From a virus: 32,071 nucleotides of DNA. Every line of letters starts with the position of its first letter. The first letter of the stretch is position 1. The position numbers were made by a program, and so were the translations under genes. Below are positions 5,666 through 28,318 of the stretch, in pieces. The notes below the pieces were generated by a model, which searched no databases, was not told where the DNA came from, and saw only the letters and a program-made list of their open reading frames with translations. Where the stretch lies: positions 1 to 32,071 of IMG/VR virus record IMGVR_UViG_3300043544_000306; one strand, given 5' to 3'.

Positions 5666-6541
5666 CTAAACGCCGCGCACCAGCACGCAGCCCTCGTTCG
5701 TGGCAGTCGTGTTGCCTGGGGCCTCGGAATAGCGCGTGACCTGCGAGTAGCCGTAGATCTCGCTCATCACGATCACTTCGTCAGCCTCGAGCGCACGGAC
5801 CTGGGTCGTGACTTTCGGCTCCATCGCCATGATGAGCGCAACGCACTCGTCCTTCAGCAGGAAGTTGTCGTGCTGACCAGCAGCCGGGATGGTAAGCAGG
5901 TTGCTCATCTTCACCGGCACACCGGCGCACATGCCGACAAGACCCTTCCGGTTCGCGCCCTCGGCATTGCCCTGCCCGACGTAGTCGGCGTTGCTGAACC
6001 GGTCATCCTTGATGAGCGCGTAGTACTGCGGGGCCGAGACGTAGAAGACAAACCCGTCCGTCGGGTCGTAGTTCGCAGAAGCAGCGAGCGCAATCGCGCT
6101 GAGCAGCGTCTCGAACGTGGCCTCGACACCGTACGTGCCGACCACCTGCGGGAACGAGCCCGCCAGCCCCGCAAGGTCAACGTCGATCTTGCGGGCCATG
6201 GCGTAGCCCATCTTCTTCATGAACTCGGCGCGCAGGTCGTTCTGCGAGAGGACCTTGACGTTGTCCTCGATCGCGACCGCGCTCGCCACGTACGTGTTGA
6301 TCTGGATGGTCTGTTCGGTGTCGGTGTATGCCTGCGGGGTAAGCGGAGTAGCTTCCGCCTTGGCCGCCACCGTCAGGTTCGGGAAGCGCGCCTTCCGGTA
6401 GATGTCGCCGTGGCCCACGAAATCCCAGCTGCGGTCGACATCGTTCTGGATGGTCGTCTCTGCCTCGAGGGCAGCAATCACGCCCTGGACGAACACGTCC
6501 GGGATATGGACGTTTGCCGCAGTCTTGGTAACTGAAGGCAT
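5666..6541 (-). CDS. major capsid protein
   Basis: A 291-residue protein of the usual coat size. It begins MPSVTKTAANVHIPDVFVQG and has the typical coat-protein run: a VAAKAEATPLTPQAYTDTEQ strand region, IDVDLAGLAGSF, FVFYVSAPQYYALIKDDRF and GMCAGVPVKMSN, then a C-terminal strand set with QVTRYSEAPGN. These are features of HK97-fold phage coat proteins (the 'K.DVDLA' helix and the 'P..Y..L..D.RF' segment). It follows a scaffold-like gene directly and has a strong ribosome site (GGAGGAGGAGAAC). It forms the icosahedral shell. Confidence 0.92.
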   Translation of the reverse strand: MPSVTKTAANVHIPDVFVQGVIAALEAETTIQNDVDRSWDFVGHGDIYRKARFPNLTVAAKAEATPLTPQAYTDTEQTIQINTYVASAVAIEDNVKVLSQNDLRAEFMKKMGYAMARKIDVDLAGLAGSFPQVVGTYGVEATFETLLSAIALAASANYDPTDGFVFYVSAPQYYALIKDDRFSNADYVGQGNAEGANRKGLVGMCAGVPVKMSNLLTIPAAGQHDNFLLKDECVALIMAMEPKVTTQVRALEADEVIVMSEIYGYSQVTRYSEAPGNTTATNEGCVLVRGV

Positions 6542-7762: not shown

Positions 7763-7885
7763 ATGCGGCCTGGGACCTTCATCATGATCATGCTCTTCAT
7801 TGTTCTGCCGGTGCTCTACGGCCTGTGCAACGACCCGGACGAAGACACGAGCGTCCTCGACCACACCTACTACCACGAGTACTAG
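7763..7885 (+). CDS. 40-residue membrane protein on the opposite strand
   Basis: This short rightward gene lies in the gap between the scaffold and giant-protein genes, both leftward. It encodes MRPGTFIMIMLFIVLPVLYG and then LCNDPDEDTSVLDHTYYHEY. That is one hydrophobic segment of about 16 residues (positions 6-21) followed by an acidic, Tyr/His-rich tail, as in a single-pass membrane protein. Third codon positions are strongly G/C, as in the genuine genes around it. There is no Shine-Dalgarno, but TACACT sits six bases before the ATG, suggesting a leaderless mRNA. An in-frame ATG at 7745 would add six residues. Its stop overlaps the stop of the giant gene (CTAG), so the two are convergent. 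A small lysis, membrane or regulatory role is possible; no family is recognised. Confidence 0.55.
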   Translation: MRPGTFIMIMLFIVLPVLYGLCNDPDEDTSVLDHTYYHEY

Positions 7886-10800
7886 TAGCTCCGGTACTGC
7901 TCGTTCAGAGCCTTCACCGTGTCATAGGTAGCGTTGTCATCCAGCCAGATGAGCAGGTCTGGATGGAGCTTCTTGTAAATGACGAAGTCCGGATTCTGCA
8001 TTTTTTCAACGCCGAGGTTGTAAACATCAATGGCAACCTCGACCGGATACCCCTTCTGCGTGAAGTAGAGGATGAGCCGGTCCTTCAGCGGGGCCTTCTC
8101 CAGCGCGGCCCACTCGGGACGCTTCATCGCATCGAGCGCTGCTGCGCGGAGGTCCATCAGCGTCTTGTCAGGCAGGTCGCTCATCTTCACCGCAAGCCGC
8201 GAGATCGAGTTGTCGAGCCCCGGGAAGTACCCGTCGCGGGTCAGCTGGTTCACAACTCTCCGGTACTCCTGCTCGATGCCGGGCAGCGCCTTCTCGTACA
8301 TCAGCGCATCGATGTAGCGCTGAGCCTCAGGCCCGTACTTCGCCCTCCACTGCGACTGGAGCGCATCAAGCCACTCGTAATCGAGCAGGCCGGTCTCCGG
8401 GTCCTCGGCCTCCTCGAACGTCTGGTAGTAAGCGCGCACCCACTCAGCAGGCGTCCCGGGCTGCACAGCCCTGGGCTCGGGCAGCTGCTCGACCAGCTTC
8501 GCCAGCGCACCCCGCTGCTCGGCAAGAATGATCTTCCGCTGCTCCTTCCACTCGCCCAGCGTGATCTGGCCGGACTCGGCACGCTTCGCAACTGCCTCCA
8601 GCCGTTTCTGGTACTCGGCGCGCGTCTCCTTGATCTCCTTCGCCACCTTCGAGCTGCTCTCCGGAATGAGCTCCGGATGCTGCTTCTCGAAGAACAGGAC
8701 GAACAGCGGGTCGCTCAACGGATCATCCGGCTTGTCATAGTTGAGCGGCTGGCCGTCCAGGCCCTTCGGGGCAAACTCGTATTTCTCGTAGGCGTTGTTC
8801 ATCGCCTCGTTCAGCCTCTCGCGCGCAGTCAGCGGAGACGCCTTGATGCCGAGGAACGAAAGACCCGCCCCGAACGCAATCTCGCCGGGCGACCCCTTCC
8901 CCTCGCGCACACGGTCAATCACGTCACGCACAGTAAACGGGATGGGGGCGTAGCTGAGCCAATCGCCCTTCTTGACCGGGTAGCCCGTCATGGTTTCCCC
9001 GCGGAAGTAGATCGACGGGAGATCGGCCAGCAGGCCGGGAAGCGGCGCGAGGCGCGGCCGAATGAATTCCGACGGGTTCTTGAGCGCACTGCTCATCACC
9101 CCGCGCATGAAGCTGTCGAACGATCCGAACAGCGAAACATCGTGTCCGTAAATCCGCACCTTCATCCAGTTCGGATTCCAGCGGCCATCCTTGATCGGGT
9201 CCCACTCCGTCGGCTGCCCCAGGAATTCGTTCAGCCCGAACGTCAGCAGCCCGCCGCCAACGCCCAGCCGCAGCAGCGCCCGCCTGGCCACATCCCCCTC
9301 AACACCGCCCGAGAGAAGTGCGTTCATCACTGTCTCGATCTGGGACTCAACGAACCGCGCCGCAAAGAACGTCCGGCTCATCGCCTTCTCTGTCGTAAAG
9401 GCCGAAATCGCACCGGTCCGCGCCCGGCCGCCGAGCAGGTTCGCAGCGTTGCTGATCCGCTTAAGCACATCCGGGTCGCTGATATCCACCCCGCGCTTCT
9501 GCGCCTGTTCCAGCAGCGCATACGCCCGGCGGAGCCTGTCGCTGTTCCCCTGCATCGTAAACATCACTTCCGCCTGGCGGAACGGGGGCAGCTGCGCAAG
9601 CCTCCGCGAAAGCGAGTCCTCGTCTCCGAGCGCCCGCAGCAGCACCTCTGACGGGGCAACTTCAAGGCCGCCCTTCCCGACAAGCTCGGCGATCGATGGG
9701 AGACCGCGCTTCACGGCATCGTCTTCGATCTCGCGCAGGATCTGCCACTCGCTCTTCAGCCCTGTTGCTGCCCTGAGGGCATCAGCAAACGATGCGCGCG
9801 TAATGTTCGGGTTGTCGTACAGGCCGAACACGCCGGCAGTCATCGAATACGCCATGTCGAGCGATGCGCCAATAAACCGGAACGAGTTGTTCACAAGGTC
9901 GAAGATGTCCCAGATCGGCGAGAACCGCGACGGCTTGCGCACAACCTTTGCAAGCTGGTTCACGATCTCCGGCGGAACGGGGACCTGGTCCCACCCCTTC
10001 ACATTCAGGCCGGCATCGGAAAGCGTGCTCGACCATCTGCGCCTGTAAACCGCAGCAAGCTGTTCGGTCTCGCTGATGTCCTTCTTGAGAACATCCGCAA
10101 TAGCCCTGTTCTCGGAAAGCTGCTGGCCGAGCTCGGCAATCTTCTGGCTTGCCTTCTCATCAGCTTCGAGAAGGCTGGCGAGACGCTTGCTCCGTGCATC
10201 GACAAGCTGCTGGAGATCAGCGGCCCGGCGCCGGGCAACCGCGTCCTTTATCGCCTGCGTCAGCCGCCCCTCCTCCTTTGCGGTCTTCTCGATCGTCCGG
10301 AGAGCACTCCTCACCTGCCGATCGACGCCCTTGAATTGCTTGCTCATGCGCTCGAGCTCGGCGGCAGCAGTCTCGTACTGCGCGGCAAGGTCCTTCGCAA
10401 CGGGCTTCAGAACATCGGCCTTCCCGGCAGCCTTGCCGCGGCCGGGAACATCGGCGAGCGATTCGATCTGCACATGGAGCTCCGCCATATCGCTGGCAAG
10501 GGCCCGTTTCATGCTGGCAACTTTGGCGCGGTAGTTCATCGCGCGGTTGACAAAATCCTGGAGGTTCCCCTCGCCGACCTTGACCCGCTTCGCCTCGCGC
10601 TGGAGCATCTTCGCCTCGCGAATCAGCGAGTTCAGCTCCTGCCGCGCAGAACTTGCCTGCCCGGCAACCCCCTGCGTCTTCCGCGCATACTCGCTGATGG
10701 ACGAGAGCGCATCATCAAATTCCTGCTTCGCAAGATCATGGGCCGTTCTCGCGGCGTTGAGGCGCACGGCCAGGCTTTCGTCGCTGAGGTTCGCCTGAGC

Positions 10801-13800
10801 AACCAGCCGGTCAATCTTCGTCCCGAGGCTGCTCATCTCGCGCATCTCGATGCGGATATCGCGCTGGATGCGCGCAGACTGCGCCTTCACACGCCGCGCC
10901 TGCGACTCAATCTTCCGCGCCTCGGCATTCAGGTCATCCAGCGCCTGCCGCACGCCCTTCTGAACGCGGAGGTCACCGAGCTTTGCCCCGGTCTTCTCGT
11001 CAATAACAACCTTGTCGAGCTGGTCGCTCAGGTACTTCAGGTTGATCTCGTCAAGCATCGACTGCACATGCGAGACCAGCACCTGGTCGGGATTCGGGTA
11101 CTTCACTCCGGCAGTAGCGATCGCCTCACCGGCTGTAGGCCACTTCCGTCCCTCAAGCCCGCTCACCGTCCGCGCCCGACGAATCCCCTGCGGTTCGACA
11201 TGGACATCGACACGCTCAACAGGAACAGGCTCGCCGCGCGGGAAGTAGAAATCGCCGGTTGCCAGATCGTCCGGCTCAAGCCCCATCGACAGCGCCATCT
11301 CATAGAGCGGACGCAGGGCACGGTCAGCGCGCTCCAGGGCTTTGAACTGCTCATCAGTAAGCAGCCCGAGCTCTTTGTACATCTTTGCGCGCGCAGCAAC
11401 ATCGGAAAGCGTCGCGCCGATTGCACGCATCTCAAGAGCGTCTTCGGTCTGCTTGAGAACAGGAACGATGTACTTGCCCGGCCGATCCGGCACGGCATAC
11501 TGGGCGCGGACCACAGGGTCGGGGAACACCCGCACTGCCGTGTCTTCATCGATCAGGACACGGCCAAGCTCATCAACATCAAAGTTCCGGGCGATATCAT
11601 CAGCACCGGCAATGTTCGCCCACACCGGCACCAGCCGCCGGATGATGTCATTGTTCTGCCGAAACGCCTCGGCAATCCAGTACACGCGATTATCGATCCG
11701 GCGCGCCTGGGCAGCATCGATGAACTTCGACAGGAACGCCCACCACGCATCAGCCACGCGCGCCGTCAGCGGCAGCGGACGATCAACGTTCGCCAGCTCT
11801 TTCAGGAAGAGCGGAATATCCTCGACCGAAAGACCGAGCTCCGCAGCGCGCTCGCGGAACGCCTTCACCGCCGGGACATCGGCCGCTTCAGTCAGCCAGT
11901 CCGCGTAGGTCTTCCTCGCGAGCGGAGAGGTGAACCCCTTCATCGGGGGCGTTGCAAGGCCAATCCCGCCGCCGATCGCGGCGCCCCCGAGCGCCCACTT
12001 CAGCTTCTCCTCCGTGGTCGCATCGTCAGGGGCTGCGGCAAGCCCGATACCGGCGCCGACAAGCCCCGGAACAATCGGGCGCGTCACTCGGTGTTGGAGC
12101 GTCTTCCCGGCAGCACGTGCCAGGTTGTCCGTCATCACACGCACGAGGTCGAGCCCGCCGGCGCCGACAGCCGCACCGCTCAGGATCCACGCCAGCCGCT
12201 CTTCCAGCGACGCATCCTCCGGGGCCGCCATGGCGCCAGCCATCCCGCCCGCTGCGCCAAGCGCAAGCCGTGCACCCAGCCTGGCCGATGCCTCGCCAGC
12301 CTCGCCCGAGGCAAGCCGCGCAATCACACCCGAGCCGGGAACGCGCGCCGGGAGCGCCCTGAGCGATTCCGATGCGGCCTGGCCGGCCGCGGCGCCGAGC
12401 ATCCCCGGGACACTCCCCATCCGTCGCGTCATGTTGCCGACACCGGCCCCAAGAAGCGCTGCCTGCCACGGCTCAAGCCCGGTCCTTTCCTTCCCGCCTG
12501 CAGCTTCATTCAGCACGTAGCCGCCGATCGCCCCCACCATCTCGCGGCCGATGGCCCTCTCCGCAGCATCTACGGCGATATCGGAACGGCGCAGGATCTC
12601 GCTCAGCCGCGTGCCGGCGCGTGCCACGTCGGCGGCATCATCAGCCTTCCCGAAAAGCCCGAAACCAAGAAGGTTCGTCGGGTCATACACAATTCCTGCA
12701 GCAATCTGCTGCCAGAGCGGGCGCTCGAGAAACTTCGCATGCTGGATCTCAGCAAACTCTTTCGGGTTTCCGCCGCTCTCCCTGACGCTCTCGACCAGGT
12801 CCGAGAGGCCAGACTTCGTCTTCGTGTCAACATCGTACCCGGCCGTTTCTTTCGCAACGAGCTTCGCAAACTCACCGGTCCGGTATCCGCCCGGCAGTAG
12901 ATTGGCAGCAGCGTTTAGCAGCGCGGGCGTCAGCTGCGCGCCGGTTTCTGCAAACGGGTCGAAGAAGTAGGTGTTCGCGGCATTGTAGATACCCTTGAGG
13001 AAATCAGCAGTAGAGCGGCTTCCATACTTCTGCTGGATGTACTCGTCGATGTTCCTCACGCGCTCGCGGTTCTGCTGATCCTCCCACCAGGAACGGTACG
13101 CAGGGTTCTTCCGCCACTCTTCCGGATCAGGCTGCTGGAAGCGGATGTTGCCGGCGATCCCGAGCTGCACGTCCTCGTACCGCTTCCAGTCGGCCGGGTT
13201 GGCGATGAAGTTCGAGGCAGTCACCGCCCCCGGCTGCGGCATCTCCTGCAGGCGTCGCTGCTCCACAGCAGGAGCAAGCCCCATCTGGATATCTTCCCAC
13301 CGCTTCCAGTCAGACGGGTTGGCGGCAAAGTTCTGGGCGGTCACCGTGCTCGGGCGAATCGGGGAACCGGCTATCGCGATCTGCTGGTCCTCGTACCGCT
13401 TCCAGTCAGCAGGATTCGCAATGAAGTTGGCAGCAGTATTCGGCCCTGGCTGCGGCGGCTGCTGCCCAAGAATCAGCGGAGCCGCCAGCGGATTCCGTGC
13501 TGCAGCAGCAACACGCATCGCCTGCTCAATGCGCTCGCGGTTAAAGTTCCGCTCAGCCGTAATAGCGCCCTCCAGCTGATTCTGCATGAGCGCATCTTCT
13601 GCGGCGAGCTGGCCAAGCACCTGGGGAGATTGCCACTGCCCGCCGATGAATACCTGCTGATTCGCAGGGTCAACCCACAAACCGTCCTTCCAGATAAGCC
13701 CGGTAGACGGATCGCGATAATGCCCGCCGGCACCATCGTCGACCCACTGATACCCTTGCGGGCTGTACCAGGCTCCATTCTGCCAGCGGTATCCGGTGTT

Positions 13801-14046
13801 TTTGTCGTAGTAGTAGCCGCCGGACGGCGTATCCACCCAGAGCAGATTGGGTTTTCCCTCAACAGGCGTCCCGGACACACCGACCTGCTGCGCCTTCGTG
13901 CCGGCCGCCTGCACAGCCGCCTGCGCGGCTGCACCGGCTCCGCTGACTGCACCGGCCGCCCGTGCGATGACACCGCTGAGCGTCGCGCCGGCAGGCTTGA
14001 AGGAGGACCCTACACCGCCGCCGCCCTCGCCAAAAACCAGCGCCAC
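7882..14046 (-). CDS. giant phage polyvalent / virion protein (about 2054 residues)
   Basis: The start GTG at 14046 follows the previous stop directly, with GAGGT nine bases upstream; a TTG at 14055 is the alternative. Residues 1-60 are Ala/Gly-rich. Residues about 60-145 hold Trp/Tyr-rich repeats (GGYYYDKNTGYRWQNGAWY; GGHYRDPSTGLIWKDGLW). About 205-300 has three copies of NFIANPADWKRYED. About 590-720 has Gly-zipper hydrophobic repeats (GAAGGMAGAMAAPEDAS; GAGIGLAAAPDDATTEE). About 1040-1340 is a long coiled coil. The C-terminal third (GGGLLTFGLNEFLGQP; LAPLPGLLADLPSIYF; DWLSYAPIPFTVRDVID) resembles the C-terminal part of large phage polyvalent proteins. Such proteins are packaged in or near the head and may enter the host with the DNA. 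No ADP-ribosyltransferase, protease or lysozyme active site could be identified. It is coupled to the 1362-residue gene. Confidence 0.85.
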   Translation of the reverse strand: MALVFGEGGGGVGSSFKPAGATLSGVIARAAGAVSGAGAAAQAAVQAAGTKAQQVGVSGTPVEGKPNLLWVDTPSGGYYYDKNTGYRWQNGAWYSPQGYQWVDDGAGGHYRDPSTGLIWKDGLWVDPANQQVFIGGQWQSPQVLGQLAAEDALMQNQLEGAITAERNFNRERIEQAMRVAAAARNPLAAPLILGQQPPQPGPNTAANFIANPADWKRYEDQQIAIAGSPIRPSTVTAQNFAANPSDWKRWEDIQMGLAPAVEQRRLQEMPQPGAVTASNFIANPADWKRYEDVQLGIAGNIRFQQPDPEEWRKNPAYRSWWEDQQNRERVRNIDEYIQQKYGSRSTADFLKGIYNAANTYFFDPFAETGAQLTPALLNAAANLLPGGYRTGEFAKLVAKETAGYDVDTKTKSGLSDLVESVRESGGNPKEFAEIQHAKFLERPLWQQIAAGIVYDPTNLLGFGLFGKADDAADVARAGTRLSEILRRSDIAVDAAERAIGREMVGAIGGYVLNEAAGGKERTGLEPWQAALLGAGVGNMTRRMGSVPGMLGAAAGQAASESLRALPARVPGSGVIARLASGEAGEASARLGARLALGAAGGMAGAMAAPEDASLEERLAWILSGAAVGAGGLDLVRVMTDNLARAAGKTLQHRVTRPIVPGLVGAGIGLAAAPDDATTEEKLKWALGGAAIGGGIGLATPPMKGFTSPLARKTYADWLTEAADVPAVKAFRERAAELGLSVEDIPLFLKELANVDRPLPLTARVADAWWAFLSKFIDAAQARRIDNRVYWIAEAFRQNNDIIRRLVPVWANIAGADDIARNFDVDELGRVLIDEDTAVRVFPDPVVRAQYAVPDRPGKYIVPVLKQTEDALEMRAIGATLSDVAARAKMYKELGLLTDEQFKALERADRALRPLYEMALSMGLEPDDLATGDFYFPRGEPVPVERVDVHVEPQGIRRARTVSGLEGRKWPTAGEAIATAGVKYPNPDQVLVSHVQSMLDEINLKYLSDQLDKVVIDEKTGAKLGDLRVQKGVRQALDDLNAEARKIESQARRVKAQSARIQRDIRIEMREMSSLGTKIDRLVAQANLSDESLAVRLNAARTAHDLAKQEFDDALSSISEYARKTQGVAGQASSARQELNSLIREAKMLQREAKRVKVGEGNLQDFVNRAMNYRAKVASMKRALASDMAELHVQIESLADVPGRGKAAGKADVLKPVAKDLAAQYETAAAELERMSKQFKGVDRQVRSALRTIEKTAKEEGRLTQAIKDAVARRRAADLQQLVDARSKRLASLLEADEKASQKIAELGQQLSENRAIADVLKKDISETEQLAAVYRRRWSSTLSDAGLNVKGWDQVPVPPEIVNQLAKVVRKPSRFSPIWDIFDLVNNSFRFIGASLDMAYSMTAGVFGLYDNPNITRASFADALRAATGLKSEWQILREIEDDAVKRGLPSIAELVGKGGLEVAPSEVLLRALGDEDSLSRRLAQLPPFRQAEVMFTMQGNSDRLRRAYALLEQAQKRGVDISDPDVLKRISNAANLLGGRARTGAISAFTTEKAMSRTFFAARFVESQIETVMNALLSGGVEGDVARRALLRLGVGGGLLTFGLNEFLGQPTEWDPIKDGRWNPNWMKVRIYGHDVSLFGSFDSFMRGVMSSALKNPSEFIRPRLAPLPGLLADLPSIYFRGETMTGYPVKKGDWLSYAPIPFTVRDVIDRVREGKGSPGEIAFGAGLSFLGIKASPLTARERLNEAMNNAYEKYEFAPKGLDGQPLNYDKPDDPLSDPLFVLFFEKQHPELIPESSSKVAKEIKETRAEYQKRLEAVAKRAESGQITLGEWKEQRKIILAEQRGALAKLVEQLPEPRAVQPGTPAEWVRAYYQTFEEAEDPETGLLDYEWLDALQSQWRAKYGPEAQRYIDALMYEKALPGIEQEYRRVVNQLTRDGYFPGLDNSISRLAVKMSDLPDKTLMDLRAAALDAMKRPEWAALEKAPLKDRLILYFTQKGYPVEVAIDVYNLGVEKMQNPDFVIYKKLHPDLLIWLDDNATYDTVKALNEQYRSY

Positions 14047-14047
14047 G

Positions 14048-17000
14048 TCACACAAACCTCACAAGCGATGGTTCATATGCCCTGCCCGGAGGCAGGAGCC
14101 ACGAGGCAAGCTGGGCGATAAGCGACAGCGGAATGCCGCCGGCCGTATACAGCGCATTCGCAAGATCCCATCCGCCGCTGTTCATGAGGGTAAGCAGCTT
14201 ATTCATGTTTGCCGCCTGCGCCGGGCTCGGCAGGCTGATCCCAAGGCCCGGGACCTGCACCGGGTTGTTCGTCATCGCAAAGAACTCACCAGGCCCAATC
14301 TCCCCGCGCAGGAACCTGAGCAGCGGAAGGTTGTTGTAAACACCCTGCCCGTAGCTCATAGTCGAGAACATGTTCATCAGGTCGCCGAGCGTCAGGTTCG
14401 AGAGCGGGGTATTCGCATTCCACGTAGTCTGCCCGCCGCCGGCGCCGCCGCCGCCCGTACCGCCTCCTGCCGCAGGCGTCCCGGGACCTCCAGCGCCCTG
14501 CCCTGCCCCCGGAGGACCGCCGCCGGTCGTGAGAGCAGAAGCGCCCTGCCCGCCGCCGGCACCCCAGGTAAGCGGTGGCATCGGGGCTCCGGTAAGCGGA
14601 TCGATCGGCGTAACCGGGGTCGGAGTAATCGGCACGGGTGCGATCGGAACCGGCGGATACAGCCGCGAAAGCACGTCATCGCTTGCGAAACCACCAAACG
14701 AATACGTCACCTCCCTGCGTGGAGGAGGCCCGTACGTCACGAGCGGCTGCGGATAGCTGCGGAGATACCCGTTATCCCAGTAGCTGTACCCGGGCTGAGG
14801 AGCCCCGCCGATGCTCTGGACCATCCCGTGCTCGAGCAGCCACCGCTGCGCGTTGTCAGGAAGCGCCAGGAATTCCTCATACGTGACCTTCCACGGCTCC
14901 TTCGGAAGCTGCGGCGCAATCCTCATCCACTCATCGATGAGCTGGTTCTGCTCCTCAAACGAAAGCCTGTTCCAGTTCCGTTCCGTCGCAGGAACAAAAC
15001 TGGTGTCGCCGAGACCGACGTTATACCGGTAGAAGATGTTCGGATCCGTAACGACGTAGCCCGTTGGCCGCCCGCCGAGAATCGCCTGCTTCACCTCGTC
15101 CGGGAGCTTGAGCCATTCCTCAAACGTTCTGATCTCGGTAAGAGCAGGAAGAACCGGTTCCCATGTCCGCCGTATCGGATTCCACCTGATCCACGTCCCA
15201 TCGGCCGTCTTCACATCGCCCGGGAGAATCGTGTACGTCCCTCCGCCATCCCACGACTTCTCCGTGAACACCGACGTGGCCACATCGCCGGCAGCCGTCT
15301 TGATCGTCATCGCATTGGTATTCCCGGAAACGTTTTGCATCGGCGCGGCGCCCGGGATCGGCTTTCCAAGAGCATCCGTCGGGATGTTCCCGACACGGTA
15401 GCCGGAGGGGCTTTGCGGATCAGCAACAACACCAACGGCAAGGCCGCTGACATCATCGATCCCGTCCCTGTCCAGGTCGCGGCTCGCGAGCCCCGCAGTC
15501 TGGCCGGGCTTCGGCATGTTCGCAAGGTCCTCGCGCGTAAGGCCGCGGTCCTCGTTGAGAATCAGGGGGAGCGCCTCGCCAAGCTGGCTTCCGGCGTACT
15601 GGCTGTTCGGGTTGGTAATCTTGTCGCTTTCTTTCATCCCGCGGTAGGGCGAGTTCCAGAACGGGTCCGCCATAATCTGAGAACCACGCACCCAAACGCC
15701 GCTTACCGGGTCAACGTACCAATTATCCTCGACAAGGCCGACGAGGCCGGCAGGCCTGGAAGCACCGGGATCGCGCATGATCTGCGCTATCTCGGCACCC
15801 GTGTACACGCGGCCTGTTATCGGGTCGAAGTACTGCCGATCAGGGTAGATGTCGATCGCCACCCCGCCAATCGTTACCGTTCCAATCGGCTTCGAGATGC
15901 TCCCGCTCCCGCTGCCCGTGGACGACGGAGAAGACGTGCTCGACGGCGGCGGAGCCGAGGACGGCGGCGATGCGGGAGGCGTGCTCGACGGCGGTGGAGC
16001 GGAGGACGGCGGCGGCTGGGTCCCGGCAGTACCCGGCGGAGCGCCTGGAACGGTCTGCGTCCCAGCGTACACCCACACCACGGTCCCGGGAGCAATCGTC
16101 TCGCCCTGGTTCAGCCGGCGCACCTGCCCTGTCGCAGGATCGACGATGTAGACGTTCTGCGGATTCGCAAGATCGTTGTAGTTTACCGAAATCGGCGACG
16201 TGATCAGGTTCCAGCCCTGCGACAGCGGAACCGTTCCCCATGACATCCCGGCAGCCGGCGCCGTGCTGCCCGTCGAACCACCGCCGGGAGTACTGCCTGC
16301 CGTGCCACCTGCTGTAGAACCGCCGTTCGAACCGCCGGTGTTGGCAGGCGGCGTATACGTCGCGCCATTGGCATACACAGGAGTACCGTTGAACGAGAAG
16401 CCTGTCGGGCTCGACGAATCGGCCCTTACGCCGATCGCAAGGCCAGTCACATCATCGATACCGTCTCGATTCAGGTCGCGCGATGCATCGCCCACCAGCA
16501 CAGCGCCGGTCGTTGTCCCTGTGCCGCCGGATGTACCACCCGCAGAAGAGCCGCCGCTCGACGTGCCTGCAGGCGGCGTATACCTTGCGCCATTGGCATA
16601 CACAGGGATGCCGTTGTAGGAGAAACCTGTCGGACTCGACAGATCGGTTTTCACCCCGATCGCAAGGCCGGTCACGTCGTCGATTCCGTCTCCATTCAGG
16701 TCGCGCGAGGCACTGCCCTCCAGCACAATGCCGGTCGTTGCCGAGCTGCCGCCGGATGTACCCCCGGAAGAAGAACCGCCGGAAGCAGCTGACCCGCTTA
16801 TCGGCAGCCCGGTCATGTCATCGATACCGTCGCCATTCGCATCATTGGCTGAAGCAGTGCCGCCGTAGTTCTGCCACGCCCACGGGTCTCTTGTCCCGCC
16901 CGCATACATCGGCACGCCGCCGGCAAGCCTGGACAGCGGGACAACCATCGCCTGCGGACGCCCATCTTTCACCCGCAACTTCACCACCTCCGGATTCGGA

Positions 17001-18136
17001 ACACCAGGCAGCTGCGGATCGCCAACAATGAACGTGCGCGCCCGCGTCCACCCGTCCTTCGTCACCTCGCCACCGCGAACGGTCCCCCGCGCAAACTGGG
17101 GCAGCTCGTCTCCGCCGCCGTTTTGACTTCCACCGCCTGCCTGCCCGGTTCCTCCTGCGGGCTGCCCCTGGGGGATGGTCTGCGGCGGACCGCCGCCGAA
17201 GGCGCTGCTCAGGAACGGATTCACCAGTGGGGCCTGGAGCTGCATCAGCTGCCCAAGCGTCATCGGCTGATCACCGGCCTGCCCGGTCCAGATATTCACA
17301 GGCGTCCCAACCGGGAACTGCCCGGTCCTCAGGAAATACTCCCGCGCAACGGCATCGCCCGGGTCAGCCGAGAGCTGGGCGATAATCCGCGCGCGCTCGA
17401 GATTCGTCTGCATCTCGTCACGCGCGCGCTGATACGCCATCTGCTCGTCGAACTGGCGGATCTGCTCTTCAAGACGCTGGCGCTCCAGCTGCAACCTCGG
17501 GTTGTTCGGGTCGTTCTCCAGCGCAAACTGCAGAAGCTTCAGCTCCTTTTCGAGCTCAAACCGCTTCTGCATCAGCTCCATTTCGAGCTGGGCTTTCGCC
17601 TGCTCGTAACCAAGCTTCAGGCCGTAGTCGGTACCTGAACTCCCGCCGCCACCGCCACCGCCGCTCGAAACCCTGACCGTACTTGAACCACCGGAACTGC
17701 GGCTGCCGCCGCCGATCAGGCTGTCGAGGTACTTCCGCTGATCGAGCGCAAGGCGCGCAAGCTGCACCTGGTCGTTTACACTCAGCGGCTGATCGATCCA
17801 CCCGCCCGGCTGCGCCTCGGCCCATGAGAGGCCGAGCCAGGCGTTGAAGTCGGGATCATTCTGCGCGGCAGGCGAGTTGACGTAGGCCTGGACCTTGGCA
17901 ATCAGCGAGGGCGACGCTTCGCCTCCGGCAAGGATTTCCCTGTCGCTGATAGGCCCGTACGGCCACGACGCAGGGAGCCCCACATTCGAGGCGCCGCCTC
18001 TCTGGATCGCCTGGTTGACGATGCCGTTGATCAGCTCCTGCGTGGCGACCGTCACCCACGTAGCCTGGTCGAAAACTCGGCCGCCGAACGGGCGGATCGA
18101 GTTCGCTGCAATCTGGCCTGGCGCAGGATACGTCAT
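14048..18136 (-). CDS. large repeat protein with Ca-binding-type loops (1362 residues)
   Basis: The start ATG at 18136 overlaps the stop of the 282-residue gene (ATGA); the longer open frame upstream is not needed. Residues about 170-260 are a charged coiled coil (LEMELMQKRFELEKELKLLQ). Four loops of the DxDxDGxxD type follow: DANGDGIDD, DLNGDGIDD, DLNRDGIDD and DLDRDGIDD, at about 430, 477, 552 and 887. Two lie in a perfect 75-residue (225-base) tandem repeat ending in YTPPA. Such loops bind Ca2+ in dockerin and thrombospondin-3 type domains. Ser/Gly and Pro/Ser linkers separate beta-rich pieces (GWNLITSPISVNYNDL; YDIYPDRQYFDPITGRVYTG). A Gly-rich segment and a hydrophobic C-terminus follow. 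It sits between portal-side genes and the giant protein, so it is probably a virion protein of the tail, internal or ejection type. No family is recognised as a whole. Confidence 0.85.
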   Translation of the reverse strand: MTYPAPGQIAANSIRPFGGRVFDQATWVTVATQELINGIVNQAIQRGGASNVGLPASWPYGPISDREILAGGEASPSLIAKVQAYVNSPAAQNDPDFNAWLGLSWAEAQPGGWIDQPLSVNDQVQLARLALDQRKYLDSLIGGGSRSSGGSSTVRVSSGGGGGGGSSGTDYGLKLGYEQAKAQLEMELMQKRFELEKELKLLQFALENDPNNPRLQLERQRLEEQIRQFDEQMAYQRARDEMQTNLERARIIAQLSADPGDAVAREYFLRTGQFPVGTPVNIWTGQAGDQPMTLGQLMQLQAPLVNPFLSSAFGGGPPQTIPQGQPAGGTGQAGGGSQNGGGDELPQFARGTVRGGEVTKDGWTRARTFIVGDPQLPGVPNPEVVKLRVKDGRPQAMVVPLSRLAGGVPMYAGGTRDPWAWQNYGGTASANDANGDGIDDMTGLPISGSAASGGSSSGGTSGGSSATTGIVLEGSASRDLNGDGIDDVTGLAIGVKTDLSSPTGFSYNGIPVYANGARYTPPAGTSSGGSSAGGTSGGTGTTTGAVLVGDASRDLNRDGIDDVTGLAIGVRADSSSPTGFSFNGTPVYANGATYTPPANTGGSNGGSTAGGTAGSTPGGGSTGSTAPAAGMSWGTVPLSQGWNLITSPISVNYNDLANPQNVYIVDPATGQVRRLNQGETIAPGTVVWVYAGTQTVPGAPPGTAGTQPPPSSAPPPSSTPPASPPSSAPPPSSTSSPSSTGSGSGSISKPIGTVTIGGVAIDIYPDRQYFDPITGRVYTGAEIAQIMRDPGASRPAGLVGLVEDNWYVDPVSGVWVRGSQIMADPFWNSPYRGMKESDKITNPNSQYAGSQLGEALPLILNEDRGLTREDLANMPKPGQTAGLASRDLDRDGIDDVSGLAVGVVADPQSPSGYRVGNIPTDALGKPIPGAAPMQNVSGNTNAMTIKTAAGDVATSVFTEKSWDGGGTYTILPGDVKTADGTWIRWNPIRRTWEPVLPALTEIRTFEEWLKLPDEVKQAILGGRPTGYVVTDPNIFYRYNVGLGDTSFVPATERNWNRLSFEEQNQLIDEWMRIAPQLPKEPWKVTYEEFLALPDNAQRWLLEHGMVQSIGGAPQPGYSYWDNGYLRSYPQPLVTYGPPPRREVTYSFGGFASDDVLSRLYPPVPIAPVPITPTPVTPIDPLTGAPMPPLTWGAGGGQGASALTTGGGPPGAGQGAGGPGTPAAGGGTGGGGAGGGQTTWNANTPLSNLTLGDLMNMFSTMSYGQGVYNNLPLLRFLRGEIGPGEFFAMTNNPVQVPGLGISLPSPAQAANMNKLLTLMNSGGWDLANALYTAGGIPLSLIAQLASWLLPPGRAYEPSLVRFV

Positions 18137-18981
18137 CGCCGCCCACCCCACGGCCACGGGACCCGCGTCGGGCGATACCACCCAAGGCCGGGCTTCGTCC
18201 CGAACGCATACGCAGGAGCCTGGAGCCACGGATAATCGGGATCATCAAACCCCTGCGGACCGGGAAGCCCGACAGACTGGTTCAGCCGATAGTCGGGGAG
18301 CACATAGTCAGGAAGGCTCGGGGCAAGAATCCGCGAAAGCGTCATGCTGTAGTACGGCTTCGCGTAGTAACCGAACGGCGACGCCATCCCGAGCTCCCTC
18401 TGCCGCTTCAGGTTCTCATAGTTCTGGTCATCGGCGTTCTTGGCATACTGCTGCTCTTTGTGCATCAGGTCGTAGAGCAGCGATGCCCTGTCCTTGAAAT
18501 CCTCGTACTGGCGCTCAACCTCTTTCGTCTTCGCCTTCTCGAGATCGAGGTACGTAGCCCCGGCGCCTTCCGTATCGCCGAGGTACTTGACAAGCTCCTC
18601 AGCGAGCTCCTTATTGGTATACGCTTCCTGCAGTTCGGGGAATCCTGCATCGACAGCACTGACCCAGATGTACTCGTCGACAATGCCAAGGGCCTTTGCC
18701 TGGGCCCGCTGCTCGGGAGACATCCTTTCGAAGACGGGATTCTTGATCTTGACCTTGACCTCGCCGTCGTCGACATCGATATACAGGCCGTTCCTGGCAG
18801 CCTCGGCCTGCATCTCAACCCAGCGCTGCCCGGCCTGCTGAGCCTGGCGCTTCGCTTCGTCCTTCGTCTTTGGAATCTGCGGCTTTGGAATCTGCGGCCG
18901 GTCGCCAGTCAGCGACGGCGGATTGAGATCATCGGCTACAACTGTTCCCGAGCCTTCACCCTTGGTATCCGGAAGCGGCAT
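18133..18981 (-). CDS. virion-operon protein, unknown function
   Basis: A 282-residue protein: a Pro-rich N-terminal part (PQIPKPQIPKTKDEAKRQAQ), a charged central domain with GLYIDVDDGEVKVKIKNPVF, helices with RQYEDFKDRASLLYDLMHKE, and a Pro/Tyr/Trp-rich C-terminus (SLPDYVLPDYRLNQS; PWLQAPAYAF). The ribosome site is GGGGTGA. It overlaps the 141-residue gene at its start and the 1362-residue gene at its end, so the three are coupled. Location next to the portal suggests a connector or internal head protein, as inference. Confidence 0.8.
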   Translation of the reverse strand: MPLPDTKGEGSGTVVADDLNPPSLTGDRPQIPKPQIPKTKDEAKRQAQQAGQRWVEMQAEAARNGLYIDVDDGEVKVKIKNPVFERMSPEQRAQAKALGIVDEYIWVSAVDAGFPELQEAYTNKELAEELVKYLGDTEGAGATYLDLEKAKTKEVERQYEDFKDRASLLYDLMHKEQQYAKNADDQNYENLKRQRELGMASPFGYYAKPYYSMTLSRILAPSLPDYVLPDYRLNQSVGLPGPQGFDDPDYPWLQAPAYAFGTKPGLGWYRPTRVPWPWGGRR

Positions 18982-22315: not shown

Positions 22316-22736
22316 GCTGCACCTCCATCGCCGCCAGTTTTCGCACCACCTCAGCCTTCACAGGCTGGACTGGCTCGTCCACAACAGGGCTGTCGCCGTA
22401 GAGGAGCGCCTTCCGCGCGCGGAACGTCTTGAGCAGGACGCTCTCGCCGATGGCAACCCCGTCGGCATCAGTGACGTCGCGAGAAACAGCGGAGCAGATG
22501 GCAAGGCAGTCCCCGAACGTCAGAGGAATGGTGTACTCGTCGAGCATCGAATCGACACAGGTCACGATTGCTTCGATGATAAGCTGGTTCAGTTCGAGGC
22601 TCCCTGGTGGAAAACGCATCTCCGCCATATTCGGAAGCGGCTCAGGCGCGATCTTCGACTCAAGAAGCCAGAGCTCATCCAGTGAGAACGTCACCGGGAC
22701 TGTTCCGAACGGGATAGAGAACGATGCCGGCATCAT
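22290..22736 (-). CDS. unknown terminase-adjacent protein
   Basis: A 148-residue protein (MMPASFSIPFGTVPVTFSLD). Its first ATG overlaps the terminase stop (ATGA), so it is translated with the terminase. A beta-type N-terminus is followed by helices (SLELNQLIIEAIVTCVDSML; IPLTFGDCLAICSAVSRDVT) and a Glu/Asp/His-rich end. No motif identifies it. A packaging or head-assembly helper is possible by position. Confidence 0.75.
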   Translation of the reverse strand: MMPASFSIPFGTVPVTFSLDELWLLESKIAPEPLPNMAEMRFPPGSLELNQLIIEAIVTCVDSMLDEYTIPLTFGDCLAICSAVSRDVTDADGVAIGESVLLKTFRARKALLYGDSPVVDEPVQPVKAEVVRKLAAMEVQHAADEDHS

Positions 22737-24265
22737 CCTGCGCGCACCACCGGAAGCTGTCTCAAGAATACACGAGGGTCTCCGGGACCCTGCCGTAAAC
22801 GCTCATGCATGTACCTGTCTGCTGCAAGAATGTCGGGCTCATCAACAAGCCTGTTCGTGTCTTTGTCGCGCACCCACTCGGACACGGCATGCGCCCAGTT
22901 CGGGCATCCGCCCTCGGCATGGCCTGCCGGCAGGTAGTACGACCCCGGTTTCCCCGTCGCATCGGGGAGCATCCTGATCGAGACGAGGCGCACGCCGTTC
23001 TCGACACTGTCGTGGCCGCCCTTCGACGGGACGATGTCGAACGCCCGCTTCAGCTCGGAGATGCCGAGACCCTGCGAGCGGTCGCCGACCCAGCGGATCT
23101 GCTTCTTGATCGGCTTCGCCCACTTCTCCTCCATCCTGCCCATCCAGTCCGCGAGCCGACGGTAGACGCCGACACCGCGCTGCTGGAACTCGTCGACGCG
23201 AATAAGGCGGCCGGTATCCGTCAGCACGGCAACGATGCCGGCCGTGTAGTGCGCATCGCTCTGCTCGAAGCCGAGGTCGATGCCGCCGTACACGCCGACA
23301 TACTTCGGGACGGGGTCCTTCCACGCGTGGATATCCGGGTTGAACGCCTCGTACACGAGGCCTGCGTAGACATCGAATCTTCCCTCGACGTACCGCTTCA
23401 CCTTCTCGGGCGGCAGGAGGGCGCGGAGGTTCTCCTCGTAGAACGGGCCGTTGTGCGGATTGTCGCGCGGGAGGGACTGGACGAAGACAACCTTGACCTT
23501 GCCGTGCTCCTCCAGGGCCTTGAGGGCATCGCCGTACTGGCCCTTCCAGAACCAGTCGGTGAAAAAGCCGGGCTCAGGGTTGGCGGCGGCGAAGAACAGG
23601 TAGCGCATGCCGCGCCCCCTGATCGGCCCGTGGCGCGGGCAGATGCCTGAAGGGCAGATGTTCGGGCAGACCACGAGATCGTCGTGCTTTGCGCACCACC
23701 CGGGCGGGCAGTCGGAACAGAGCTCAGGGTGCTTGACCTCGTCGACATGGCCGCACTGCTGGCGGAGCATGTCATCGACCTCTTTCGGGAAGAGGCCGAA
23801 GCGAAGCCGGGTGAGGAGGTAGTGAGCGATATCGTAGCCCTCCTGCCCCGTGAGCTCCCCTGCCTCATCGATGAAGATCGCCTGGTACTGCGACGAGCCG
23901 AGCTTCAGCACATCCTGGACGCCGGTGTAGTGGAGCACGGATGTGACGTTCTGCGGCCATGTCCGGTCGCGGACAGCGATCCAGTGCTCGTTGTCGTTCT
24001 TGGTGTACATGCCGGGCGGGAGCGCCTTCCAGAGCTCCTGCATGGTGGAGGACTTCAGGGCGGTCAGCTCCTTGCGGCAGAGAAGGATGCTGATCCCGGG
24101 AAATGCGAAGAGGAGGTCGACGATCGTACGGGCGATGAGGAACGACTTGCCGCCCCCCATCGCCCCGCCGTAGCCCAGGAGGAGGTAGGTGTCCTGCGGC
24201 TGGGTGATGATGTGGCGGTACGCCTCCTTCTGCTTCGGCAGGAGGGGTTTCAGCTCGCGCGTCAT
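22733..24265 (-). CDS. terminase large subunit
   Basis: A 510-residue DNA-packaging motor. Walker A is GYGGAMGGGKS (31-41), Walker B is IFIDEAGE (130-137) and the coupling motif is FFAAANPEP (about 224-232). The nuclease domain has GGIDLG (Asp330), RVDEFQQ, VGDRSQ (Asp395) and DILAADRYMHE near the end, giving the RNase H-like acidic set. It uses ATP to pump DNA into the procapsid through the portal and cuts the concatemer. Between the ATPase motifs lies a Cys/His-rich stretch (residues 171-212: C171, H173, C183, C186, C191, H194, C200, C204, C209, H212), an unusual probable zinc-binding insertion. The start ATG overlaps the end of the zinc-finger gene (ATGA). No convincing small terminase gene was seen; that partner may be one of the small genes nearby. 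Confidence 0.97.
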   Translation of the reverse strand: MTRELKPLLPKQKEAYRHIITQPQDTYLLLGYGGAMGGGKSFLIARTIVDLLFAFPGISILLCRKELTALKSSTMQELWKALPPGMYTKNDNEHWIAVRDRTWPQNVTSVLHYTGVQDVLKLGSSQYQAIFIDEAGELTGQEGYDIAHYLLTRLRFGLFPKEVDDMLRQQCGHVDEVKHPELCSDCPPGWCAKHDDLVVCPNICPSGICPRHGPIRGRGMRYLFFAAANPEPGFFTDWFWKGQYGDALKALEEHGKVKVVFVQSLPRDNPHNGPFYEENLRALLPPEKVKRYVEGRFDVYAGLVYEAFNPDIHAWKDPVPKYVGVYGGIDLGFEQSDAHYTAGIVAVLTDTGRLIRVDEFQQRGVGVYRRLADWMGRMEEKWAKPIKKQIRWVGDRSQGLGISELKRAFDIVPSKGGHDSVENGVRLVSIRMLPDATGKPGSYYLPAGHAEGGCPNWAHAVSEWVRDKDTNRLVDEPDILAADRYMHERLRQGPGDPRVFLRQLPVVRAG

Positions 24266-26105: not shown

Positions 26106-26211
26106 GTGCCGTTTGCCCTGGTGACACGCCATCGTCTCCTGGTGATCCCTCGCGTCTCCGTCTCTGTTTCGTCGGCCCAATCGGAACATGACCCATCCCC
26201 AGTTACATGTA

Positions 26212-26240
26212 TTGACTCCCTGGCGCGATTGCCGTACTGT
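26212..26240 (+). promoter_or_regulatory. sigma70-like promoter for rightward genes
   Basis: TTGACT (26212-26217), 17-base spacer, TACTGT (26235-26240). Transcription would start near 26247 and run into the gene at 26290. The leader begins with a small hairpin TGGGCC/GGCCCA. A 10-base palindrome TGGCGCGCCA lies before the ribosome site and might bind a regulator. Confidence 0.6.
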
Positions 26241-26289
26241 GGGCCTGTGCGGCCCAGGATGGCGCGCCAGACAACAACCAGGAGGAACC

Positions 26290-26820
26290 ATGAGCACCAC
26301 CACCACCACCACCACCATCGAGGCTACCCGCTATTACTGGCGGTGCACCGATTGTCTTGCGGGCACCGTCACCACCGAGACGTTCGGGGCAGAGGTACCC
26401 ACTATTTGCAACCTCTGCCAGGGGCCTGTACGGCTGCTGGGCCCTGTTGACGGCATCGAGGCGCACTGGGTGCGAGTGCTGCATCTGAGCCCCTGCGATC
26501 ACCGTTGCACTCGCGCTCGTGGCCGACGCTGCGAGTGCGAGTGCCTGGGGCGCATGCATGGCAGTGGCCTGGTTCGCGAAGTTGAGCGTATTGGGGGTGC
26601 TATCCGGCTCACCCCGTCATTCGACGCGGAGGCCGCGATTGCCCGGGCTGAGGAGTTCCGGGCAATTCGGCAGCGTATCCGTGAAGCCCTCAATGCCCGG
26701 TACGGCCGGTGCTGGTCACAGTACTACCTCGCCGCCTACGGTGAGCTTGCTAACCTGGCAACGCATCAGTCGCGCATGAAGAAGGCGGCGAGACTGCTGC
26801 GCGAAATTGCGAGAGGCTAA
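26290..26820 (+). CDS. Cys-rich zinc-ribbon phage protein
   Basis: The ATG at 26290 follows AGGAGG by four bases; the longer open frame from 26188 is not used. The 176-residue product starts with a run of Thr (MSTTTTTTTIEATRYYWRC) encoded by repeated ACC. C19-x2-C22 with C40-x2-C43 form a zinc ribbon. A second cluster, SPCDHRCTRARGRRCECECL then GRMHGSG (C69, C73, C81, C83, C85, H90), resembles the C..AxGxxCxCxCxGxxHG cluster of uncharacterised phage proteins. The C-terminal half is helical and basic. It is the first gene after the promoter and is followed by a twin hairpin and the 182-residue gene. Role unknown; nucleic-acid binding is plausible. Confidence 0.85.
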   Translation: MSTTTTTTTIEATRYYWRCTDCLAGTVTTETFGAEVPTICNLCQGPVRLLGPVDGIEAHWVRVLHLSPCDHRCTRARGRRCECECLGRMHGSGLVREVERIGGAIRLTPSFDAEAAIARAEEFRAIRQRIREALNARYGRCWSQYYLAAYGELANLATHQSRMKKAARLLREIARG

Positions 26821-26826
26821 GCCGAA

Positions 26827-26892
26827 ACGGGGCTTCGGCCCCGTCTGCCCCGGGTGGCCGCCGGGGCGCTGAATGAGGCAGGCCACAGGAGG
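26827..26892 (+). ncRNA. twin-hairpin leader element, copy 1 (cis-regulatory RNA candidate)
   Basis: Hairpin 1 is ACGGGGC-TTCG-GCCCCGT (26827-26844). Hairpin 2 is GCCCCGG (26847-26853) with CCGGGGC (26861-26867). The loop of hairpin 2 carries TGGCC (26855-26859), which can pair with GGCCA (26881-26885) lying next to the ribosome site AGGAGG (26887-26892). The same layout is found before 27524 with different but still complementary stem bases, so the structure is kept rather than the sequence. It may control translation of the next gene, or end part of the upstream transcript. Confidence 0.6.
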
Positions 26893-26897
26893 ACCCA

Positions 26898-27446
26898 ATG
26901 ACCACCACCCTCACAACTTTCGCCGATCTCCTGGACGAGGCTCGCCGCTACCTCGGCGAGTACGACCAGGCCCGGGTCATCACCCGCGAGCAGGCCGTTG
27001 CGGAGGTCATCGAGCGCGCCGCCCAGCGATGGTGGGGCAAGCACGACCTCGGCGCAGTCAGCGACGAGGTCCTCGCCGACCTCCACCGGCTCGTCGAGGA
27101 AGAGGCCGACGCATACGCCGGGGAAATCGGCCGCTACCTCGACGACACGTACATCGGGCCGTGTATCGCCCGCGACCTCGTCCTCGGCTACGCCTGGCTT
27201 CCCCGGGCTCTTGCCGAAGACGAGGTGGTCGACAACGGCTGCCGCTACGCCTTCTACGTGTGGGAGGACGGCTCCTGCACTCTGGACTGCACCGAGCCGG
27301 ACGCACCCGAGAACGAATGGTGGAGCTACCCCTTCGCCCCGAACGAGGACGTCCGCTGGTTCGAGGGCGTGCCCCAGCACGTCCTCGGCCGGTTCCATCA
27401 GCTCAAGCAGGAGGCCATCGAGAGCAGGGTCGCCAAGGCCAGCTAG
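26898..27446 (+). CDS. 182-residue acidic protein, unknown, with duplicated domains
   Basis: It starts MTTTLTTFADLLDEARRYLG after AGGAGG. The N-terminal half is helical with VIERAAQRWWGKHDLGAVSD and LHRLVEEEADAYA. Nearly the same pattern (VERAARRWWRRHGRG then LFRLIDEELTKAA) occurs in the minus-strand gene at 29567-29872. The C-terminal half (YVWEDGSCTLDC; YPFAPNEDVRWFEGVPQHVL) resembles the C-terminal part of the next gene (YADGSRELILCGPEG; YPVAPEEW, IEGIPTDVL). No known family is recognised. It lies between two copies of the twin-hairpin element. Confidence 0.85.
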   Translation: MTTTLTTFADLLDEARRYLGEYDQARVITREQAVAEVIERAAQRWWGKHDLGAVSDEVLADLHRLVEEEADAYAGEIGRYLDDTYIGPCIARDLVLGYAWLPRALAEDEVVDNGCRYAFYVWEDGSCTLDCTEPDAPENEWWSYPFAPNEDVRWFEGVPQHVLGRFHQLKQEAIESRVAKAS

Positions 27447-27451
27447 TCGAA

Positions 27452-27518
27452 ACGGGAGCAATGCTCCCGTCTGCCCTGAGATGGCCGTCAGGGCACTGAA
27501 GATGGCAGGCCAAGGAGG
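27452..27518 (+). ncRNA. twin-hairpin leader element, copy 2 (cis-regulatory RNA candidate)
   Basis: Hairpin 1 is ACGGGAGC-AAT-GCTCCCGT (27452-27470). Hairpin 2 is GCCCTGA (27473-27479) with TCAGGGC (27488-27494). The loop TGGCC (27482-27486) can pair with GGCCA (27508-27512), just before AGGAGG (27513-27518). The distance from TGGCC to GGCCA is 21 bases in both copies. Compared with copy 1, stem changes are compensatory (CGG/CCG to TGA/TCA). Confidence 0.6.
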
Positions 27519-27523
27519 ACGAG

Positions 27524-27856
27524 ATGATGGCTAACGTGACTGAGACTGACTGGGGCCTTGTCAGGGTCGACGGGACGGGCATCGGCCCGTGCCTGGCGAT
27601 CATGGACGCTACGGCCGACCGGGCCGCTACCGCCGTCGATAGCACCGGCTGGGAGTGGACGGTGCTGCAATACGCCGACGGCAGCAGGGAGCTCATCCTT
27701 TGCGGGCCCGAGGGGCAGACCAGCCCGCTCAGCGGGTATCCGGTCGCCCCCGAGGAGTGGCTGGAGGACATCGAGGGCATCCCGACCGATGTCCTCGACG
27801 AGCTCGCGGCCGCCGGCATCCACCGCGTGCGGCGGCCTGGGCCGGCTCCCCGCTAG
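27524..27856 (+). CDS. 110-residue protein related to the preceding gene's C-terminus
   Basis: It starts MMANVTETDWGLVRVDGTGI with AGGAGG upstream (the second ATG, 27527, is equally possible). It contains GWEWTVLQYADGSRELILCG, then YPVAPEEWLEDIEGIPTDVL. That matches the second half of the 182-residue protein in order and motif, so the two genes probably share a duplicated domain. Function unknown. It ends 20 bases before a strong hairpin that also faces the minus-strand gene. Confidence 0.8.
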   Translation: MMANVTETDWGLVRVDGTGIGPCLAIMDATADRAATAVDSTGWEWTVLQYADGSRELILCGPEGQTSPLSGYPVAPEEWLEDIEGIPTDVLDELAAAGIHRVRRPGPAPR

Positions 27857-27869
27857 GATGCCCGCCACC

Positions 27870-28318
27870 CAACCTAACGTGGCGCTCCAGGAGACGGAGC
27901 GCCACGTTCGCGTTTACCACGTGAACGGCCCAGCGCTCCAGCGGCAGGCCGGCGCTCGAGAACCACCCGCCATCACCCACGGTCCTCGGGATCCACCGGA
28001 TCTCGCACCACGCCACCGCCAGCACCTCGTCAGCCTGCCTGTCGGGCCAGCCGGCCGGCCACAGCACCTCGCGCAGCTGCGCCTTGGTCAGCTGCGCGGG
28101 CCATGGCGCGGCCCACCTGGGGCTCGACGTCTGTCGAGCGCCGACACCTGCGCCCCGGCCAGCCATGCAGATGCCGCGTGTTCGGCCGTGACAATGCCAG
28201 GCGAAGCCGACAGCCCTGCAGGCGCACGACACCTGGTCAGCATCGTGGCTGCCGCCAGCACTGCCGGCCATCGGGCCCAGGCGCGCCTCCGATGGCGGCA
28301 ACCGGGGCTCCTGTGCAC
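27870..28318 (-). pseudogene. degenerate secreted lytic transglycosylase-like gene
   Basis: A GTG at 28318 opens a frame with a signal-peptide-like start (basic residues, WPAVLAAATMLTRC), then ASPGIVTAEHAASAWLAGAQ; this frame stops at 28088. In another frame the sequence goes on with PWPAQLTKAQLREVL, WPAGWPDRQADEVLAVAWCE, IRWIPRTVGDGG, then WFSSAGLPLERW and VVNANVALRLLE. The WCE-x-RW, VGDGG and VNA-x-VAL patterns fit lysozyme-like transglycosylases, where the Glu in WCE is catalytic. The SLGLFQ motif that normally follows VGDGG is missing. One frameshift near 28100 plus this in-frame loss suggest a decayed gene. No ribosome site is seen and no stop follows the domain. A host-derived or phage lysis gene remnant is likely. 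Confidence 0.4.
27876..27908. terminator. bidirectional terminator-like hairpin
   Basis: A perfect 13-bp stem, AACGTGGCGCTCC (27876-27888) with GGAGCGCCACGTT (27896-27908), and a seven-base loop, between a rightward gene and a leftward one. It has no clear T-run. The same DNA encodes NVALRLLERHV in the degenerate transglycosylase frame. Confidence 0.6.

Follow-up and report, generated by a model that had tools for sequence, protein, structure and literature searches.

Type II hammerhead ribozymes between phage genes: a tight fit from stop codon to ribosome site, and recurrent core insertions

Type II hammerhead ribozymes (Rfam family RF02276; Perreault et al. 2011, PMC3088659) have a permuted order in which stem II is left open, a core made of a GAAA and a CUGANGA strand, and a GUC triplet. 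The pseudoknot between loop I and the tail was reported for the class in the same 2011 study and is needed for fast cutting. Members occur near phage and prophage genes, and clusters flanking single prophage genes were noted, for which transcript processing was suggested (PMC3088659). Self-cleavage in vitro was shown for tandem hammerheads of bacterial genomes, and those of A. tumefaciens also cut when transcribed in E. coli (PMC3088659). In the haloviruses HF1 and HF2, the hammerhead HHphage lies just 5′ of a phage start codon (13 nt), and the 5′ end of an mRNA was mapped to within 3 nt of the site of cleavage (PMC3088659); together with the A. tumefaciens result, this gives in vivo support for cutting. 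In the crystal structure of a pseudoknot hammerhead (8YDC, PMC11300833), the pseudoknot supports catalysis in place of loop–loop contacts. The reason why hammerheads cluster near phage genes was called still unknown in a 2023 paper (PMC10085705).

The window analysed here is a whole 32,071-base IMG/VR virus record, classed as linear. On its minus strand it carries a capsid gene (5666–6541) and a terminase gene (22733–24265). Two very long open frames on the same strand (7882–18229; 2057 and 1393 aa) had no Pfam match and are probably structural genes of a divergent phage. On the plus strand, positions 26188–27856 hold a row of three small genes, A, B and C, separated by two spacers of 77 nt each (26821–26897 and 27447–27523). 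Gene A, the upstream cistron, occupies 26290–26820, with an open frame reaching back to 26188 and a TAA stop codon at 26818–26820; its product has a zinc-ribbon-like CxxC...CxxC start and a Cys-rich stretch ending in Gly-Arg-Met-His-Gly. Gene B (26898–27446, 182 aa) ends with TAG at 27444–27446, and gene C (27524–27856, 110 aa) follows the second spacer. None of the three genes matched a known family. The preliminary description of this locus had proposed a domain common to genes B and C; the similarity exists, although it is weak (E 2e-6 in a single comparison, with 30% identity over 83 aa). This common domain suggests that a gene-plus-ribozyme unit may have been duplicated. Peptide-pattern searches of IMG/VR revealed no relatives of genes B and C, and tblastn against 50,697 phage records revealed none of genes A, B, C or the terminase, while the sole match of a DNA search with the locus was 45 nt in a Streptomyces phage exonuclease gene. 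No promoter was recognised. A 12-bp hairpin 3′ of gene C on the plus strand (27877–27907; z -6.3), which has neither a clear U run nor a terminator call, is a possible end of the operon.

Both spacers matched the Hammerhead_II family RF02276, copy 1 at 26820–26887 with 49.5 bits and copy 2 at 27445–27514 with 45.2 bits, compared with a gathering score of 37 (E = 1.9e-7 and 2.4e-6, respectively, for the window against all 4227 families). Rfam returned nothing else of note, and snoRNA matches to sR51 and sR32 were dismissed as they fell below the gathering score. The invariant core elements GAA, A15.1–U16.1, H17 (as GUC), CUGA and GA are present in this order in both copies. Stems I and III are closed by loops, and the RNA ends lie at the open stem II. 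Stem III has 7 and 8 bp, stem I has 8 bp and stem II has 3 bp. The loop I–tail pseudoknot UGGCC/GGCCA, a feature of most but not all members, is found in both copies. Instead of the 7-nt core strand CUGANGA, which is usual in the class but not defining, both copies have an 8-nt strand; core insertions have been recorded before in natural members (PMC3088659). The folding energy of the spacers (z -0.7 to -2.4 relative to shuffles) is weak evidence by itself, because the GC-rich background folds almost as well.

In copy 1, the 5′ strand of stem II (GCC, 26821–26823) directly follows the stop codon TAA of gene A and pairs with 26877–26879. The GAAA core strand, stem III and the GUC triplet occupy 26824–26845, stem III being formed by A26827–C26833 and G26838–U26844 around a cUUCGg loop, and by class homology cleavage is predicted after C26845. 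Stem I (26846–26868) pairs U26846–G26853 with C26861–G26868 and displays UGGCC at 26855–26859 in its loop. It is followed by the core strand CUGA-A-UGA (26869–26876), which equals CUGANGA plus one nucleotide, an insertion of the A6a type. The 3′ strand of stem II (GGC), a linker A and the pseudoknot strand GGCCA (26881–26885) then span 26877–26885, and the Shine–Dalgarno sequence AGGAGG of gene B is located at 26887–26892.

Copy 2 is built in the same way. Its stem II 5′ strand (GUC, 27446–27448) begins within the stop codon of gene B, so that the G of TAG is base 11.3 of stem II. The segment from this strand through the GAAA core and stem III (A27452–C27459/G27463–U27470) to GUC covers 27446–27471, with cleavage predicted after C27471. 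Stem I (27472–27495) consists of U27472–A27479 paired with U27488–A27495, with UGGCC at 27482–27486 in the loop. The core strand CUGAAGA is extended by U27503 just before stem II (27496–27503; U9a type). The 3′ strand GGC, which pairs with GUC in copy 2 and with GCC in copy 1, is followed by a linker A and by GGCCA at 27508–27512 (together 27504–27512), and this pseudoknot strand abuts the AGGAGG of gene C (27513–27518).

The layout that the preliminary description had reported for both spacers, two hairpins followed by GGCCA beside AGGAGG, is thus present element by element. Its stems differ between the copies by compensatory changes and stay complementary, and exactly 21 nt separate the TGGCC loop from the GGCCA tail in each. 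In hammerhead terms, hairpin 1 corresponds to stem III and hairpin 2 to stem I, and the pairing of TGGCC with GGCCA forms the loop I–tail pseudoknot of the class. The layout, for which the preliminary description knew no named riboswitch, is that of a known ribozyme; what had been overlooked are the two core strands, GAAA and CUGANGA, and the stop codons next to them.

In comparison with the described systems, the two copies share with the members reported in 2011 the permuted order, the open stem II, both core strands, the GUC triplet and the pseudoknot, as well as the phage gene setting and the tandem arrangement flanking a single gene (PMC3088659). They differ from the RF02276 consensus in that their 3′ core strand is longer by one nucleotide (8 nt versus 7) and stem II has 3 bp rather than 2 bp; in addition, a stop codon is packed into or against stem II. 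The RNA of 8YDC was designed, consists of two strands and has the pseudoknot in the place of helix II, whereas the window copies are natural single strands that retain a 3-bp stem II (PMC11300833). HHphage also lies just 5′ of a phage start codon; however, it belongs to an archaeal virus and has a core insertion near C3, unlike the insertions found in the window (PMC3088659). The class is a known one; the interest of this locus lies in the tight packing and the recurrent core insertions.

Relatives were collected from viral contigs by scanning for sequence patterns and then filtering by structure, and the resulting counts are lower bounds. Since an initial, permissive core pattern mostly picked up chance matches, stricter patterns and stem checks were used. 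At least 435 type II hammerheads, at least 416 of them distinct, were found at a minimum of 241 loci, with the parts in the same order as in the window. When applied to the reversed sequence of these loci or to three Markov shuffles of them, the structural filter passed nothing; taken with the E values for RF02276, these controls establish that the layout is real rather than due to chance. Ribozymes lie between consecutive genes, with up to 11 detected per 8.5–14.6 kb stretch (L241, L346). Five loci (L241, L346, L271, L378 and L427) carry 8 to 11 in a row, mostly one per gene; the cores at L241 are all of the U9a type, those at L378 and L427 are all canonical, and L346 has both. On the minus strand of L346 (599–669 on the reverse complement), two hammerheads lie nearly back to back, with their C11.1 positions 70 nt apart and no room for a gene. 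The gene 3′ of the ribozyme in other viruses is often unknown, and those that could be named include genes for DUF932, HARE-HTH, Mu transposase, GemA and ArdA, which agrees with the associations reported for Mu-like phages and antirestriction genes (PMC3088659, PMC10085705).

Covariation was assessed in an ungapped alignment of 33 relatives that have the core of copy 2, with stem III left out. In this set, 93.5% of cells pair versus 65% in shuffles, and the covariation score was 0.737, compared with 0.182 after shuffling and at most 0.161 when partners were slid by 1–3 columns. The filter required stem I and thereby helped the stem I result, and in part that of stem II, but it did not require the pseudoknot. 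In the pseudoknot helix, 90% of cells pair and three of the four pairs change on both sides, which bears out the conserved, covarying pseudoknot proposed earlier. Among the matches listed, 93% have pseudoknots of at least four pairs, versus 53% when tails were swapped between ribozymes.

The extra core nucleotides raise the possibility that these hammerheads have decayed and that their hairpins only protect mRNA ends or act as spacers, and the A6a-type insertion of copy 1 does belong to a class of change for which low activity was measured in 2011, in the one A6a insertion assayed (PMC3088659). On this basis, cutting of copy 1 may be slow. However, the insertions are specific. The copy 2 type, NGA plus U followed by stem II, recurs widely, and the inserted base is nearly always U, the only other base among the matches listed being a single A. 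As one scan pattern partly forced the copy 2-type core, ribozymes free of this forcing were counted separately, giving 5 U9a versus 23 canonical cores in one set of loci; among neighbours in a second set of loci there were 3 versus 33. The copy 1 type is rare and yet recurrent: when any two bases were allowed at its insertion site, the listed folded viral examples, at least 12 distinct ones with the window included, all read CUGA-AU-GA, or CUGA-AA-GA in one instance. A scan of bacterial and archaeal contigs totalling 257 billion bases gave 116 matches to this core, two of which passed the stem filter. One of these (L539, Oscillospiraceae, CUGA-AU-GA) is the one convincing non-viral example, while the other (L541, CTGATCGA) is probably due to chance. 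At L474 and L480, a hammerhead-like element with the core CUGACAA (G8 to A) was observed near a copy 1-type ribozyme. Stems, core and pseudoknot are intact in the variants, and the U9a type covaries. Because the inserted bases are specific and recurrent, the insertions look selected, and we regard decay to inactive elements as improbable.

The ribozymes are also tightly packed against the neighbouring genes across many viruses. Of the 405 listed ribozymes with enough upstream sequence, 277 (68%) have the stop codon of an open frame of at least 60 codons ending 2–8 nt 5′ of C11.1, a base of stem II, versus 2.8% for random positions on the same strands, and moving the test point by 10–60 nt lowered the value to 0.2–4.7%. 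The commonest arrangement is TAG-Y-C, which places the stop-codon G inside stem II as in copy 2, and in the second commonest, as in copy 1, stem II starts immediately after the stop. Among the viral ribozymes listed, the distance from stop to start has a median of 85 nt (quartiles 78–92), so the spacer is essentially all ribozyme. No description of this stop-codon packing was found in the literature searched.

On the downstream side, the pseudoknot strand of both window copies lies only 0–1 nt from AGGAGG, and the preliminary description had proposed that the pseudoknot could hide or expose the ribosome site. In a translational switch of this kind, the pseudoknot would form or open in response to a signal, and cutting would be absent or incidental. 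Such a switch would be in keeping with cleaved leaders that retain stem I and could retain the pseudoknot, and with the 2011 finding that the pseudoknot forms without the rest of the ribozyme (PMC3088659). In the relatives, however, the spacing between pseudoknot and Shine–Dalgarno sequence is not conserved (median 7 nt, 5–95% range -1 to 36, and 0–1 nt in only 8.5%), while the catalytic core is. The pseudoknot already has the role of holding the ribozyme active, and no aptamer-like domain remains outside the ribozyme. In simple folding of the leaders, limited to secondary structure without pseudoknots, the Shine–Dalgarno sequence of copy 2 stayed largely accessible and that of copy 1 partly so. 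A riboswitch was likewise rejected, as there was no Rfam riboswitch match, each conserved part belongs to the ribozyme, and the register with the ribosome site varies. Of the earlier interpretation, the structured two-copy RNA, the pseudoknot, the covariation and the position at the ribosome site thus stand, while the unnamed layout and the hiding of the ribosome site as a general mechanism do not; we judge the switch slightly less credible even than decay. The two strong GC-rich hairpins per spacer might speak for simple terminators of transcription or for hairpins processed by an RNase, and a match to a plain terminator alone had been named beforehand as a refutation. Both are very improbable given the missing U run, the lack of any plus-strand terminator call in the region, and the conserved non-hairpin core and pseudoknot.

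We therefore consider it highly probable that these are type II hammerheads in a phage operon of the order A–ribozyme 1–B–ribozyme 2–C, which cut a shared transcript into one-gene messages. Cleavage, its site and the chemistry of the ends are predicted from the class. On the emerging transcript, stem III would fold before stem I and the short stem II, and the loop I–tail pseudoknot would lock the fold. The predicted cuts after C26845 and C27471 would part the three cistrons. The upstream RNA would end in the stem III hairpin just past the stop codon with a 2′,3′-cyclic phosphate, and the downstream RNA would begin with a 5′-OH, followed by the hairpin of stem I, the 3′ strand of the pseudoknot and, immediately after it, the Shine–Dalgarno sequence. 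The message of gene B would measure 626 nt, that of gene C would end near the hairpin at 27877–27907, and each gene would obtain its own short mRNA with structured ends; effects on stability and translation we only infer. In RiboJ-type insulators, too, a hammerhead cut leaves the gene with a fixed leader, capped by a hairpin, ahead of the ribosome site, but they were engineered from a plant satellite RNA hammerhead and are placed after promoters, not between cistrons. Translation of the preceding gene could, by inference only, delay cutting, since a ribosome terminating there would sit on stem II and on the first part of stem III. A further reading, which we hold to be speculative and rather unlikely, is that stop codon, ribozyme and ribosome site form a phage module. 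In it, the timing of the cut would be set by the terminating ribosome, through masking of stem II, and the core insertions (an extra U behind A9, an extra A behind A6) would be selected to set the rate of cutting.

Stop–ribozyme–start packing in hundreds of viral spacers points to a job for these ribozymes, namely the production of single-gene messages with defined ends and without a host nuclease. In addition, the recurrent core insertions are naturally occurring variations on a textbook catalytic centre, which do not appear in the Rfam consensus.
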